This document shows, one piece after another, positions 31,392 through 44,224 of a DNA stretch of 44,224 nucleotides (position 1 is the first letter of the stretch; each line of letters begins with the position of its first letter). The translations under genes and the position numbers were made by a program. The DNA comes from Rhodospirillaceae bacterium (GTDB taxonomy: Bacteria; Pseudomonadota; Alphaproteobacteria; Azospirillales; Azospirillaceae). Location: contig JAJUIU010000025.1 of assembly GCA_029267445.1 (NCBI GenBank), positions 1 to 44,224 of the forward strand, given 5' to 3'. The notes under the pieces are model-generated. The model searched no databases. It was not told the origin of the DNA and saw only the letters and a list, made by a program, of their open reading frames with translations.

Positions 31392-32399
31392 ATGAGACGA
31401 TCCCACGACATCCCGGCCGGCACGGTGCAGCGGCTGACCATCCACAGCCGGGCCCTGAAGGGCAACCCGCTGGGCGACGCGACCCTGCGGGCCGTGGACG
31501 TCTGGACGCCCCACGGACATGACGGCCGGGGCCTGCCGCTGCTGGTCGACCTGGTGGGATACACCGGCAGCGGCCTGTCCCACACGAACTGGAAGAACTT
31601 CGAGGAGAACGTGCCGGAGCGGCTGGACCGGCTGACGGCCGAGGGCAGGCTGCGCCCGTGCGTCGTCGCGTTTCCCGACTGCTTCACCCGGATGGGCGGG
31701 AACCAGTACGTCAATTCCGCCGGGATCGGCCGCTGGATGGACTTCATCTGCGACGAGATGGTGCCGGCGGTGGAGGCGCATGCCGGCTGCGGCGGGACCG
31801 GGCGGCGCGGCGTGTTCGGCAAGAGCTCCGGCGGGTACGGGGCCATCGCCCACGCCATGCTGAAGGCGGACGTCTGGGCGGCGGCGGCCTGCCTGTCGGG
31901 CGACATGGGCTTCGATTGGTGCTTCCTGCCCGAGTTCCCGTCGGTACTGCGGGCCCTGTCCAAGCACGACATGTCGATCGACCGGTTCATGAAGGCCTTC
32001 CTGTCGGCCCGCAAGGTGGACGGCAAGGACACGCACATCCTGATGATGCTGTGCATGGCCGCCACATACGACCCCGACCTGTCGGTGCCCTGGTCCGTGC
32101 GCCTGCCGGTGACGCTGGACACCTGCGAGATCATCCCGGAGCGCTGGGCCAACTGGATGGCCTGGGACCCGCTGGAAATGGCGCCGCGGCACGCCGACGC
32201 CCTGAAGAGCCTGAAGGCCCTGTGGATCGAGTGCGGCGACCGCGACCAGTACAACCTGGTCTACGGCGCCCGCCGGATGCACGCCATCCTGGGCCGGCTG
32301 GGCGTGCCGCACCGGTACGAGGAGTTCCCCGACGACCACAGCGGCATCGACTACCGCATGGACGAGTGCCTGCCGTTCCTGGTGGACGCGCTGGGCTGA
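31392..32399 (+). CDS. Putative esterase, alpha/beta hydrolase (PF00756-like)
   Basis: 335 aa with no signal peptide. The nucleophile elbow is FGKSSGGYGA (Ser near 145). The C-terminal catalytic His is in EEFPDDHSGIDYR, and a likely acid is in LWIECGDRDQYN. The layout matches the esterase D/Fes-type PF00756 group, in which the substrate varies widely. It lies 24 bases after the Nudix gene on the same strand, so the two probably form an operon. A long repeat-containing gap follows. Confidence 0.85.
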   Translation: MRRSHDIPAGTVQRLTIHSRALKGNPLGDATLRAVDVWTPHGHDGRGLPLLVDLVGYTGSGLSHTNWKNFEENVPERLDRLTAEGRLRPCVVAFPDCFTRMGGNQYVNSAGIGRWMDFICDEMVPAVEAHAGCGGTGRRGVFGKSSGGYGAIAHAMLKADVWAAAACLSGDMGFDWCFLPEFPSVLRALSKHDMSIDRFMKAFLSARKVDGKDTHILMMLCMAATYDPDLSVPWSVRLPVTLDTCEIIPERWANWMAWDPLEMAPRHADALKSLKALWIECGDRDQYNLVYGARRMHAILGRLGVPHRYEEFPDDHSGIDYRMDECLPFLVDALG

Positions 32400-32419
32400 G
32401 GGCCGGTGCGGTCTTCTCG

Positions 32420-32441
32420 CCCTTCAACAAGCTGAGGGTGA
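32420..32441. repeat. Element resembling a common bacterial interspersed repeat
   Basis: The stretch CCCTTCAACAAGCTGAGGGT (32420-32439) is a near match to the CCTTCGACAAGCTCAGGGTGAGG-type motif that recurs in many proteobacterial genomes, differing at two positions. It is an imperfect palindrome. Only one copy is seen in this window. Confidence 0.5.
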
Positions 32442-32466
32442 GGGGGACCTGCCGTTCCGGCCTCTC

Positions 32467-32594
32467 TAAGGTGACATCAAAGGTGACAAAGGTGACATCT
32501 AAGGTGACTAAGGTGACATCTAAGGTGACATCTAAGGTGACATGGAATCCCAGCGATTCCAGTCACTTACGCGCTTTAAGGTGACAAAGGTGAC
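32467..32594. repeat. Nine-copy AAGGTGAC repeat array
   Basis: AAGGTGAC occurs exactly nine times, starting at 32468, 32480, 32489, 32501, 32510, 32522, 32534, 32578 and 32587. The first seven are spaced 12, 9, 12, 9, 12 and 12 nt; after a 44-nt break the last two are 9 nt apart. Linkers are ATCW in 12-nt units and a single A or T in 9-nt units. The break holds a dyad: GGAATC (32544-32549) and GATTCC (32555-32560), flanked by a degenerate inverted copy of the unit (GTCACTTA, 32562-32569). No coding role is seen. Confidence 0.9.
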
Positions 32595-32752
32595 ATGAAC
32601 ATCGCATTCGCCGTCCGATGCGTTGGGGAACGGGCGCGCGACGTGGAGGGGGCAAGGCCCCCTTGCGGCGGTTTTCTTCACATGTTCAAGACCCGGCGGC
32701 GGAACCGCGTGGCCGGCAGAGTAGCCTGGGATAGGATTATTTTCCAGGCCAT

Positions 32753-33670
32753 TCAGGCCGCCGCGTGCGACGACAGCAGCGGGTCCAGGCCGAACTCGTG
32801 GGCCAGGAAATCGATCATCGCCCGGACCTTGGGCGAGAGCAGGCGGCGGGACGGGTAGACCGCGTTGATCGGCAGGGGCTTGGGTTCGAAGTCCCGCAGC
32901 AGCTCCACCAGGCCGAGCGGGGCGTAGCCGCCGGGGAAATGCCAGGTGGGCAGCACGCCGATGCCGAGCCCGGCGACCACCCCCTCCCGCACCCCTTCGG
33001 AGTTGTTGACGCTGAAGGGGCCGGCGACGCGGACGGCGATCGGCCCGTCGGGGCCGGAGAATTCCCACCGGTCGCCGGTGGCGAGGCGGGTATAGACGAC
33101 GCAGGCATGGTCCGCGAGGTCCTCCGGACGCGACGGCGGGGTCCGGCCGGCGAGATAGGCCTTGGAGGCGAGCGTCACGCGCCGGGTGGTGCCTATGCGA
33201 CGGGCCACGAGGCCGGGATCGGCGACGGCGCCGACGCGGATGGCGAGATCCACCCCCTCCTCCACCAGGTCGGCGAAACCGTCGTTCATCGACAGGTCGA
33301 CCCGCACGGCGGGAAAGCGCGCCTGGAACCGGGGCAGGCGGGGCACGATGTGCAGCCGGCCGAACACCACCGGACAGGCCAGCCGCAGCGTGCCCACGGG
33401 GGCCGCGCGCTGACGGCCGACCGCCCCCTCAGCCTCAGCCACGGCGTCCAGGACGGCGCGGGCGCGCTCGTAGAAGATCCGGCCGTCGTCGGTGACTGTC
33501 AGCGATCGCGTGGTGCGGCGGAGGAGCAGCGCGCCCAGCCGCTCCTCCAGTTCGGCGATCTGGCGCGACACGGTGGGCTGGGACGTCCCCAGCTCCCGCG
33601 CCACGGCCGAGAAGCTGCCGGTTTCGACCACCCTGGCGAAAGCACGATAGAGCGCGAGCGTATCCGTCAT
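32753..33670 (-). CDS. LysR family transcriptional regulator
   Basis: 305 aa. The N-terminal winged helix-turn-helix (residues about 1-60: ALYRAFARVVETGSFSAVARELGTSQPTVSRQIAELEERL) is typical of LysR, and the C-terminal substrate-binding domain (about 90-300) has the Type 2 periplasmic-binding fold. The closest style is the CrgA-like subgroup. It is divergently transcribed from an AhpD-like gene, so it probably controls that gene and itself. A nested dyad overlaps its start codon. The effector is unknown. Confidence 0.92.
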   Translation of the reverse strand: MTDTLALYRAFARVVETGSFSAVARELGTSQPTVSRQIAELEERLGALLLRRTTRSLTVTDDGRIFYERARAVLDAVAEAEGAVGRQRAAPVGTLRLACPVVFGRLHIVPRLPRFQARFPAVRVDLSMNDGFADLVEEGVDLAIRVGAVADPGLVARRIGTTRRVTLASKAYLAGRTPPSRPEDLADHACVVYTRLATGDRWEFSGPDGPIAVRVAGPFSVNNSEGVREGVVAGLGIGVLPTWHFPGGYAPLGLVELLRDFEPKPLPINAVYPSRRLLSPKVRAMIDFLAHEFGLDPLLSSHAAA

Positions 33671-41957: not shown

Positions 41958-43355
41958 TCAGGCCCAGACCTCCACCGACTGGGCCGTCACCATTCGGCGC
42001 TCGAACGATTGGCTCTTCACCTGGGCCACGGGCGGAACGGACAGGTCGCCCTTGCGGTCCACGGTGAAGTTCGTCTCCTGGGTCCAGCCGGTCTCCACGA
42101 CCGAGTGCCTGACCGTCATCCGGAAGCCGTAGGCGTTCTCCGGAATCTCCGACATGATGGACGCGCCGCTGGAATAGACGCTGGAGACATAGAACTTCTG
42201 CGGCGGGAACAGCTCCCGGTTCGCCAGGACGAAGTTGACCGTGGCCAAGTGGACCGCCTGCTCCGAGTTGGGCATGCGTGACTCCGCATGCTTCAGGGCC
42301 TTGCGCCAGGCCCTCATCAGCATGGCCTTGTCGAGGATCGGATCGCCCGACAGGGGGCCCACCCGGAACTCGGCCAGCTCGGTCCCCCAGATGGGGCCGA
42401 CCTTCGCCATGCCCAAAGGCTCAATCGAGGTCTCCAGCTTCCGGTATTCCCCGCGGGAATCCTCGATCACCGTCGTCCGGCGCAGATCCCCCTCGAACCG
42501 GTCGATCTGAATCTCCTGGAAGTCGCGCAGGTTGCGATGCGCGCTCGGCCCGCCATAGCCGCCGGCGATGGCATCGGAGAAACGGCGCGTGGTCACGATC
42601 GCCTCCGGGTTGTCCAGCGGGCCGAAGGCGGTGACGGATCGGGTGTTCACGCTCAGCCTCCGGCCCTGGGCGATGTCGCCGAAGAAGACCACGTCGTCCG
42701 GACGGGTGATCAGGACGGAGTGGCCGTCCGTCGGCGGCGGCCCGCCCGGATCCGCAGCAAGGGGGACGCCAAGCGCCCCGGCCACATCGGCGATGGACAG
42801 GCGGGGCCGGGGCGTGGACCCGTCGGTGGGGGCCGCCGACGTGTCCTTGTCGATCAGGATGCCGTTGAGCACCCCGTTGCCGTACCGGCCCCAGAGGATG
42901 GTGTCGCCCTCCTCGAACAGGGACCGGTTGGCCGAGACGAGGCGCGCGAAGGCGGTCAGATGCTCCGCTTCGTTGATCGGCCCGCCCCCCACCCGCTGCG
43001 ACGCGATGAAGGATTCCAGCTTTTCCCGAAGCTTCGGCAGGTCGGCGTCCAGGTCGCCCGTCGGGGCGTCGATGGCCAGCCTGGCCGCGACCGCCCGCAT
43101 GCCGAGGGTGGCATCTTCCAGACGCTCGGCGCCGCCGTAGTCCAGCTCGGACGGGGCCGCCAGACGCGCGTAGCGATAGACCGCAGGGGTTGCCGTGGTG
43201 ACCGAGGACCAGGTGCGGGTCGGCTCGATGGTGACGGACTGGCTGAGGGTGACGCGGCTGGCGGAGGCCGCGATGGCGCCGAACAGGTCGGCGTTGCGGC
43301 CACCGGCGAAGCTGCCGATGCCCGACGTGGCGAACGAACCCGACACGAACATCAT
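41958..43355 (-). CDS. Large orphan protein, 465 aa
   Basis: No family is recognised. The start is the ATG at 43355 (MMFVSGSFA), with GGAG 8 bases upstream on the minus strand; a second ATG follows at once. No signal peptide or membrane segment is evident. The N-terminal 50 residues are Gly/Ser/Ala-rich (ATSGIGSFAGGRNADLFGAI). A helical, charged part with KLREKLESF lies near 115-140, and a mixed alpha/beta remainder ends in QSVEVWA. It has no cysteine in the visible sequence. Third positions are strongly G or C. The nearest neighbours are a SUMF1-like gene and an S4-domain gene, neither informative. Confidence 0.65.
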   Translation of the reverse strand: MMFVSGSFATSGIGSFAGGRNADLFGAIAASASRVTLSQSVTIEPTRTWSSVTTATPAVYRYARLAAPSELDYGGAERLEDATLGMRAVAARLAIDAPTGDLDADLPKLREKLESFIASQRVGGGPINEAEHLTAFARLVSANRSLFEEGDTILWGRYGNGVLNGILIDKDTSAAPTDGSTPRPRLSIADVAGALGVPLAADPGGPPPTDGHSVLITRPDDVVFFGDIAQGRRLSVNTRSVTAFGPLDNPEAIVTTRRFSDAIAGGYGGPSAHRNLRDFQEIQIDRFEGDLRRTTVIEDSRGEYRKLETSIEPLGMAKVGPIWGTELAEFRVGPLSGDPILDKAMLMRAWRKALKHAESRMPNSEQAVHLATVNFVLANRELFPPQKFYVSSVYSSGASIMSEIPENAYGFRMTVRHSVVETGWTQETNFTVDRKGDLSVPPVAQVKSQSFERRMVTAQSVEVWA

Positions 43356-43486
43356 TTTTGATCTCCATGGCATTTTGCCAATCGGAGAGATGGTACGACG
43401 TCCGACGCGTTCGCGCAACCTGAGATGATCATCCGGAGTGCGCCGGTTTGAGCCGCGCGCGGCGAGGGCCGGGGCGAAGGCCCTCC

Positions 43487-43831
43487 CTACTCCCGCGGCA
43501 GGCGGGTTTCCGGGGTGGGCGGGGCGAGGTCCTCGTAGAGGGCGCGGGCCTCGGGCGCCGGGCCGCGGCGGCTGGCCAGGGCCAGCACCTTGATGACGCG
43601 GATGTGCGGCCCCAGCGGGAAGGTCAGCACGTCGCCCGGCTTCACCTTGTGGTGGGCCTTGGTGATCGGCTGGCCGGCGCAGCGGATGCTGCCCGAGGCG
43701 GCGAGCTTGGCGGCAAGGCTGCGGGTCTTCAGGAAGCGGGCGTACCAGAGCCACTTGTCCAGCCGCAGCCGCCCCGCCGCCAGATCGGCGGCGTCGGCGG
43801 GATCGGGGGCGGACAGGTCGTCGGCGGCCAT
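43487..43831 (-). CDS. RNA-binding S4 domain protein (Hsp15-like)
   Basis: 114 aa. The S4 fold is visible at about 20-85: RLRLDKWLWYARFLKTRSLAAKLAASG and the KPGDVLTFPL strand. This is the arrangement of the heat-shock protein Hsp15 (HslR), which binds stalled 50S subunits carrying peptidyl-tRNA. The C-terminal Pro/Glu-rich tail is short. It lies 6 bases after the helicase stop on the same strand, a gene order common in alphaproteobacteria. Confidence 0.9.
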   Translation of the reverse strand: MAADDLSAPDPADAADLAAGRLRLDKWLWYARFLKTRSLAAKLAASGSIRCAGQPITKAHHKVKPGDVLTFPLGPHIRVIKVLALASRRGPAPEARALYEDLAPPTPETRLPRE

Positions 43832-43837
43832 GCGGCC

Positions 43838-44224
43838 TCAGCGCTGCCCCAGGAGATCGCGCAGCTTGGCGAAGGGGTGGTCGGGATCGACCTCCTTCGA
43901 TTTCTGCGGGCCTGCGCTGAACACCTTGGGCGCCCTGTCGTCCCGGAAGCGGTCGTCACGGAAACGGTCGTCACGGCGGGGGCCCCGGCGGTCGTCCCGG
44001 CGATCCTCGCGGCGCTGTCCCTCGGTGCGCGGGCCCTCGGGGCGCGGGCCTTCCTGACGGGGGCCCTGGTGGCGCGGTCCCTCCGGCCGCTTGGCCTGCG
44101 CGCCCTCGGGGCGGCGGCCTTCGGGACGCGGCTGGCCCTCGGCACCCGGCTGGGCCGCCACGCCCTCCGGCCGGCGGTCCGCGAGGGGGCGCACGGCCTC
44201 GTCTTCGTCCACAACCACCCGAGC
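43838..44224 (-). CDS. C-terminal tail of a helicase-like protein (partial)
   Basis: The frame stays open past the right edge, giving the last 128 residues of a longer protein. The visible part is a low-complexity tail rich in Arg, Asp, Gly, Pro and Glu, with RPEGxR-like repeats and RFRDDRFRDDR. It ends in the conserved-looking KVFSAGPQKSKEVDPDHPFAKLRDLLGQR. Such a tail, with an S4-domain gene directly downstream, is typical of the large alphaproteobacterial DEAD/DEAH helicase-related protein of the Suv3-like type. The helicase core itself is outside the window, so the name is inference from context. Confidence 0.65.
   Translation of the reverse strand, partial: ARVVVDEDEAVRPLADRRPEGVAAQPGAEGQPRPEGRRPEGAQAKRPEGPRHQGPRQEGPRPEGPRTEGQRREDRRDDRRGPRRDDRFRDDRFRDDRAPKVFSAGPQKSKEVDPDHPFAKLRDLLGQR

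Follow-up and report, generated by a model that had tools for sequence, protein, structure and literature searches.

The window, meaning the whole stretch of 44,224 nucleotides that was analysed, carries a short-repeat array between an esterase gene with its stop at 32399 (plus strand) and a LysR-type gene with its stop at 32753 (minus strand), which confirms the convergent gap described in an earlier note on this DNA. Nine exact plus-strand copies of AAGGTGAC lie within 32468-32594, with starts at 32468, 32480, 32489, 32501, 32510, 32522, 32534, 32578 and 32587. The start-to-start steps are 12, 9, 12, 9, 12, 12, 44 and 9; the note had the count and the spacings right and placed the start (32467) one base too early, and the 21-nt period of unit pairs that it reported holds. 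Both strands of the window together contain 11 copies of AAGGTGAC (0.77 expected), and chance is excluded as the origin of the array because none of 100 dinucleotide shuffles reaches 11. The top TRF scores within the window also belong to the nine-copy array. Other short tandem repeats occur near the window end (43230-44153), partly inside a predicted repetitive reading frame (43838-44212), and CTTCAACAAGCTGAGGGTGAGG at 32424-32447 resembles another interspersed repeat present beside other arrays (L052, L053).

The dyad noted earlier in the break of the array, GGAATC-N5-GATTCC, is located at 32544-32560. The degenerate inverted copy said to flank it, GTCACTTA, exists at 32563-32570 but is not a conserved feature: elsewhere it is found only in array C106, and the remaining seven arrays of the genome retain just CTT there. 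The second half of the element, 32676-32746, is absent from the note. The features are as follows.

32468..32541, plus strand: left array of seven AAGGTGAC units with steps 12, 9, 12, 9, 12, 12 (counted; nine arrays in the genome)
32544..32560, no strand: dyad GGAATC-N5-GATTCC inside a 36-base gap, 44 from start to start (sequence; eight of nine arrays have the same gap length, the dyad being kept imperfectly)
32578..32594, plus strand: right double unit AAGGTGACAAAGGTGAC (sequence, pattern search, alignment)
32595..32675, no strand: locus-specific stretch from the array to the antiterminator-like block (unalignable among nine loci)
32676..32694, minus strand: boxA-like motif GGGTCTTGAACATGTGAAG (block alignment; 16S leaders of relatives)
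32693..32716, minus strand: GC-rich hairpin at the predicted transcript 5' end, weak here with z -0.19 (shuffle test)
32718..32723, minus strand: predicted -10 hexamer TACTCT, with a start predicted at about 32711 (block alignment)
32724..32740, minus strand: 17-bp spacer ATAATCCTATCCCAGGC, in which TCCTA is near-invariant in the family and GGC stands for the consensus TGC (block alignment)
32741..32746, minus strand: predicted -35 hexamer TGGAAA, one letter off TGGACA (family consensus TGGACA/TTGACA; block alignment)

No terminator-like site was found in 32350-32800, in agreement with the earlier statement that this is not an ordinary terminator, and a plain consensus promoter scan of the same segment found no promoter. 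In the window's copy, the plus strand folds better (z -2.78) than the minus strand (z -0.87).

Array copies, unit phasing and genomic setting

The window's genome (G000; 4.23 Mb in 174 contigs) contains nine arrays on nine contigs according to a two-unit pattern, which read backwards finds none. A DNA search of the genome recovers the same nine arrays, 81-100% identical to the window's, plus one 14-base chance match; the arrays other than the window's are 81-92% like it. They share a module of about 130 bases, made of seven units, a gap with an imperfect dyad and a double unit, outside which nothing clear aligns among the nine loci. When slightly varied units are allowed, every array consists of nine units, and the spacing seen in the window is exactly that of eight of them; array C1 departs from it with steps of 9, 12, 9, 12, 9, 12, 43 and 9. 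This constancy contradicts the suggestion of a variable-number tandem repeat.

Among 58 relatives, six match the two-unit pattern, and more than two matches occur only in G027 (Aerophototrophica crusticola MIMtkB3; 49 matches) and in a second relative, G032 (11 matches). The pattern relaxed to AAGGNGAC gives 94 and 36 matches, respectively. Both genomes have dozens of arrays laid out as in the window: units of AAGGNGAC or closely similar sequence are followed by a gap and by TTAAGGNGACAAAGGNGAC or a variant of it, after which G027 arrays usually have inverted units. The earlier note would have taken an array missing from close relatives and lacking other copies for an isolated expansion without function, a case that does not apply to nine arrays in the genome itself and dozens in relatives. 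In the genome collection, a three-unit pattern matches at least 112 stretches, and viral contigs contribute another 42. The conserved block described below matches 12 of the 13 A. crusticola loci among them, none of the other 99 genome loci listed and none of the 42 viral ones. A plasmid blastn search with the region gave only short weak matches in six records (E 0.2-3).

Consecutive AAGG-type units are mostly 9-12 bases apart, and steps of 10 and 11 bases are common in relatives. The best periods between pairs of such units are 10.9 (G000), 10.7 (G027) and 10.6 bp (G032), and 34 consecutive distances of 53 bp, about five turns, occur across 38 G027 loci. The units are phased at one per helical turn, and their recurrence at 10.6-10.9 bp points to a protein reading DNA. 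The protein-binding array envisaged in the earlier note thereby gains indirect support, namely this phasing in three genomes, the occurrence of units in both orientations in relatives, and the equal spacing at unrelated genes. The GTG-type arrays of G000 add nothing to the phasing argument since they have a plain 10-bp step with a best period of 9.3.

Units differ between subfamilies placed next to the same kind of promoter. Further arrays of this sort have units GTGATACG, GTGTTACG and GTGAAACG in G000, AACTTTAC and AAGTTGAC mixed with AAGGTGAC in G027, and, for example, AACGCAAC and AACGCACC in G012. From the sequences compared, the array code varies between subfamilies and the promoter is constant. 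Loci L304-L311, L367 and L371 of G000 make up another class of elements, whose units are GTG-type or related and whose promoter is the same. In G011, a genome without strong block matches, locus L374 (G011:C1:1863783) has the promoter followed by GTTTCA/CATGAAAC repeats, so that the GTG-type class may be more widespread. In the right-hand hairpins of G027 (e.g. L224 and L232; 12 loci, with a search of both strands), outer unit pairs are complementary in 12 of 13 cases and inner pairs in one of 13; the mismatch of the inner pairs falls on one and the same base in 12 of 13.

The setting was examined at 89 loci, including two rRNA leaders and contig-end pieces, with a gene caller written for this analysis; a G032 element split by a 3.1-kb insertion counts twice (L252 and L327). 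An upstream gene was called at 79 of the 89 loci, in 55 cases on the plus strand of the element and in 24 on the other strand, and 44 of the 55 plus-strand genes end within 60 bases of the array. Convergent gaps are the most frequent (27) and divergent ones are rare (7). The 14 nearest-neighbour proteins of eight of the nine G000 arrays include no recognised transposase and three proteins without a Pfam family (for array C150, no neighbour was called). Twenty G000 neighbours read singly, together with the window's two, likewise include no transposase, one GIY-YIG protein and four proteins without a family. Across 131 neighbour proteins of 143 listed, the 25 most frequent of 183 families are ordinary cellular ones with no transposase among them. 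A blastp comparison among 285 predicted genes at G000, G027 and G032 loci revealed no common element position. A G027 site before an IMP dehydrogenase gene is empty in G000, the two being too diverged to give a junction. A PALP-family gene (90% identical, 98 residues) lies near an element in both G027 (L335) and G032 (L251), at different distances and orientations.

Several G032 elements are associated with insertion sequences. IS ends (TGGACTGC..CCCC) lie inside or beside elements, one of them at L254, L257, L261, L326 and L328 and a second one at L244, L324 and L331; they are at contig ends, and it looks as if the elements were insertion hot spots. The split element at about 45.5-48.8 kb of G032:C5 (L252 and L327) is interrupted by some 3.1 kb with inverted ends GGAATTAAGTGGCGTTTATATAC / GTATATAAACGCCAATTAAGTCC.

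Predicted promoter block, hairpin and boxA-like motif

Beyond most arrays lies a second conserved block, TTCAC..TGTCCAAGA.CCG-(hairpin)-TAGGANNTTTGTCCA, which usually starts 24-134 bases past the last array unit. Read on the opposite strand, it resembles a sigma70-type promoter followed by a hairpin with site-specific arms and then a boxA-like CGGnTCTTGGACAnGGTGAA; the promoter elements come in the order -35, 17-bp spacer with TCCTA, extended -10 and -10. This promoter reading of 75 aligned blocks replaced a candidate explanation of the 3' block as an independent MITE. A sequence-only model built from 29 blocks gives 41 matches in G027, 26 in G032 and 15 in G000 at E<=0.1, and zero to three weak matches in each of G001, G009, G011, G018 and G022. 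Two matches, L332 and L343, are rRNA leaders and not elements. At the same threshold, the block is found beyond the array at all 19 G027 loci L224-L242. Leaving aside G032 array loci truncated by contig ends, 16 of 17 have it in that genome, and the remaining one has its array parted from its block by an insertion. The nine AAGGTGAC arrays of G000 include just five with a block match at E<=1e-4. At array C28 the match is weak (E 0.08), at C74 and C106 the boxA-like part is retained with an unreadable promoter, and C134 has no match to the block pattern.

Of 80 blocks collected, 75 were aligned, the other five failing the anchor with a readable promoter. The alignment gives T(G/T)GACA, a spacer of 17 bases with A.(A/T)TCCTA, TGC and then YANNCT. 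Because the blocks were anchored on the -35 and TCCTA, the conservation of these two is partly imposed, whereas the extended -10 and -10 played no part in the anchoring. At the fixed distance of 17 bp, the final -10 position of the 75 blocks is T in 90%, the TG stands at 76% and 82%, and the A at 65%. The window's promoter, with TGGAAA as -35 and GGC for TGC, is one of the weaker copies.

The promoter core GACANNANTCCTA lies inside block matches in all 21 of its G027 and all 18 of its G032 occurrences. Of 16 occurrences in G000, ten are at block matches, two at further elements (L367 and L371) and four elsewhere, at sites (L366 and L368-L370) that do not look like elements. G012 has seven, five of them at block matches, G011 two, G018 none and G022 one. 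Reversed, the core matches once in G027, three times in G032, twice in G000, once in G012, five times in G011, three times in G018 and five times in G022. Since matches fall mostly in elements and the reversed control gives few, the predicted promoter seems nearly private to the element family.

At E<=1e-4, the block is present in four (G000, G012, G027 and G032) of the 82 genomes searched from the bacterium's taxonomic family; the search of the order covered the same 82 genomes. In a class sample of 385 genomes, it appears at E<=1e-5 only in G000. These family, order and class searches used stricter filters, and the class survey scored 12 candidates per genome, so that weak copies are missed. 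A variable-gap block pattern matched none of 39 genomes, a set outside which G027 and G032 fall, and was too strict.

Downstream of the -10 comes a hairpin; 64 sites tested for it have a mean z of -2.05 relative to dinucleotide shuffles (p<=0.05 in 37). Among the 64 stem 5' arms, 62 are distinct, and identity over the six inner bases, compared in 49 arms, is 41%, where composition predicts 40%. The chosen stems are Watson-Crick at 443 of 510 positions, a count raised by picking the best inverted repeat, and the shuffle z test is the controlled one. The structure of the hairpin is kept and its sequence is not. GT and AC mismatches (19 vs 16) do not indicate which strand is the RNA, and folding of the array part favours no strand (promoter strand lower in 36 of 65).

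The boxA-like core TCTTGGACA is found with at most one mismatch in 45 of 75 blocks, with at most two in 54 and with at most three in 66 (12 with three); shuffled 45-base stretches contain it at frequencies of 0.0011 (one mismatch) and 0.030 (two), the real search having spanned 70 bases. Several of the three-mismatch matches have an extra G. The blocks without boxA are nine, all in G000 and all with a promoter; eight are GTG-type (L304-L311) and L312 has another unit. A like motif occurs in the 16S leaders of the relatives compared, as GGATCTTGGACAAGTGAA in G027, GGTTCTTGGACAAGTGAA in G032, GGTTCTTGGACAAGTAAA in G022 and GGGTCTTGAACAACTGCA in G012; the comparison covers these four genomes, the G000 16S leader not having been recovered.

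The alignments establish a modular family, in which a predicted promoter, a variable hairpin, a boxA-like motif (in one class), a locus-specific stretch and phased repeats follow each other, often near a stop codon. The array looks like one end of a noncoding element of about 280 bases scattered through this bacterium and a few relatives. We infer the transcription, the binder and the function of this element.

Proposed mechanism, alternatives and known systems

The explanation that we prefer, tentatively and with a little less than an even chance of being right, is that the array would serve as a platform for protein binding, located distally in a noncoding minus-strand transcription unit that would be antiterminated and run from about 32746 to 32464. 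RNA polymerase would start at about 32711 on the minus strand, and the hairpin and boxA would load NusB/NusE-type factors that render it Rho-resistant on untranslated RNA. The antiterminated polymerase would then meet an array covered by protein, one unit per helical turn, and might be halted there ahead of antisense entry into the convergent gene; alternatively, transcription could clear or pattern the nucleoprotein of the array. The roadblock role is the preferred step and the least supported. Units that change between subfamilies under a constant promoter are as expected if a variable partner reads the array. Weighing against this explanation, or neutral to it, are the weakness of the window's own copy, the lack of a strong block at four of the nine AAGGTGAC arrays of G000, the nine blocks lacking boxA, the four G000 core matches outside elements, and folding that favours no strand or, in the window's copy, the plus strand. 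It is tempting to go further and to propose a lineage-restricted network of dozens of noncoding units in which one private promoter fires an rRNA-type antitermination complex into a helically phased protein-DNA filament at a gene 3' end. Such a network would be a bacterial counterpart of arrays that block polymerases, and its array codes would be interchangeable; this wider proposal is possible but doubtful.

Other explanations are conceivable. A non-autonomous, MITE-like mobile element, whose array would be the sites for a trans-acting transposase and whose promoter block would be carried along, is rather unlikely, even though the elements are dispersed and patchy (four of 82 genomes), share no position found between G000, G027 and G032, leave one G027 site empty in G000 and have units particular to each subfamily, which would suit paired transposases. 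The aligned loci contain no recognisable terminal inverted repeats or target duplications, the single empty site compared having too diverged a junction. Moreover, the G000 arrays are 81-92% like the window's, yet their middle stretches are unalignable and their hairpins differ, and copying of the whole element therefore fails to account for them. Transposases are also missing from the scanned G000 neighbours and from the 25 most frequent of 183 families of the 131 neighbours, and a RAYT-type Y1 transposase is absent from G000, G027 and G032.

A function at the RNA level is improbable. The promoter and boxA suggest that RNA is made, and the repeat-bearing transcript could titrate a protein or an RNA, or serve Rho loading, because GUCACCUU every 9-12 nt resembles the spaced YC sites of rut sequences. 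Helical phasing, units in both orientations, the different composition of other subfamilies and folding without strand preference argue against it. Less probable still is a 3'-end or terminator element of the upstream plus-strand gene. It would suit the 55 of 79 loci with that gene orientation and the 44 genes ending within 60 bases of the array, but 24 of 79 have the other orientation (nine loci of the '--' type versus 19 of the '++' type), a terminator-like site is lacking in 32350-32800, and promoter and boxA would be unexplained. The remains of an IS21- or IS481-type end, proposed earlier, are very improbable: the other strand does open with TGTCACC and carries several short repeats, but no recognised transposase is encoded among the nearest neighbours of eight of nine arrays and the promoter block lies on one side only. 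A functionless local tandem-repeat expansion, for which the simplicity of the units speaks, is practically dismissed by nine loci with nine units each, by equal spacing at eight of them and by the layout shared with relatives.

Further candidates were rejected. A coding repeat would have its frame broken by the 10- and 11-base spacings of relatives and by the G000 gap of 44; an anti-Shine-Dalgarno or CsrA-like RNA sponge is at odds with the other units used by other subfamilies; and replication iterons with the many, dispersed copies.

BoxA antitermination is known mainly from rRNA, from lambdoid phages, from some genes and from CRISPR arrays. In the present elements, boxA seems to stand at the head of dozens of noncoding units that are dispersed and have a promoter class of their own. 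If true, these would be a natural set of sites for testing what happens when antiterminated transcription reaches protein-covered DNA; they would bear on the reasons for which antisense RNA may evade Rho at certain gene ends, and on the evolution of binding specificity in arrays, where AAGGTGAC, AACTTTAC, AACGCAAC and GTGATACG all occur with one kind of promoter. To our knowledge, no known system joins promoter, hairpin, boxA and operator-like array, and no description of this combination of modules was found in the open-access literature. A search of Rfam 15 with 32380-32850 of the window gave a single match, which at E 0.66 does not reach its gathering score, and 17 loci gave none above that level.

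The closest likeness is with the rrn leader. The element has promoter, hairpin and boxA in the order of such a leader, given as boxB-boxA-boxC for E. coli in PMC10250234, and its boxA resembles that of the 16S leaders of relatives; the gamma-proteobacterial consensus is GYTCTTTAANA (PMC5725501). Unlike an rrn leader, it is followed by arrays and ordinary genes and not by rRNA, has a promoter with a TCCTA spacer and hairpin arms that differ at almost every site, and gives 15-41 block matches (E<=0.1) in each of three genomes. Natural CRISPR arrays are reportedly preceded by boxA (Stringer et al. 2020, as cited in PMC7862264) and likewise combine a boxA-marked noncoding transcript with a repeat array, whereas the units here are of 8 bp every 9-12 bp, with no spacers. 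The Beggiatoaceae also have many intergenic sets of short direct repeats (TAACTGA), mostly just upstream of start codons in Maribeggiatoa, but these are heptamers for which the relevant part of PMC4679880 describes no promoter or boxA.

The elements share further traits with other dispersed repeats. REP/REPIN elements are dispersed, intergenic, grouped in subfamilies and paired with RAYTs. The present elements are similarly dispersed and diversified, with IS ends in or beside them in G032, and may cautiously be classified as a variant of dispersed intergenic repeats. Unlike REP/REPIN, they have a promoter, and a RAYT (Y1_Tnp) gene is lacking in three of four element genomes, G012 having one; the REP/RAYT assignment was rejected on this account. 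In eukaryotes, Sal-box/TTF-I arrays end rRNA transcription. They provide a working analogy only, of a protein array stopping a specialised polymerase, with no relation claimed. We assign the element to no known family; if our interpretation holds, it would behave as though a leader of the rrn type had been joined to an array of operators.
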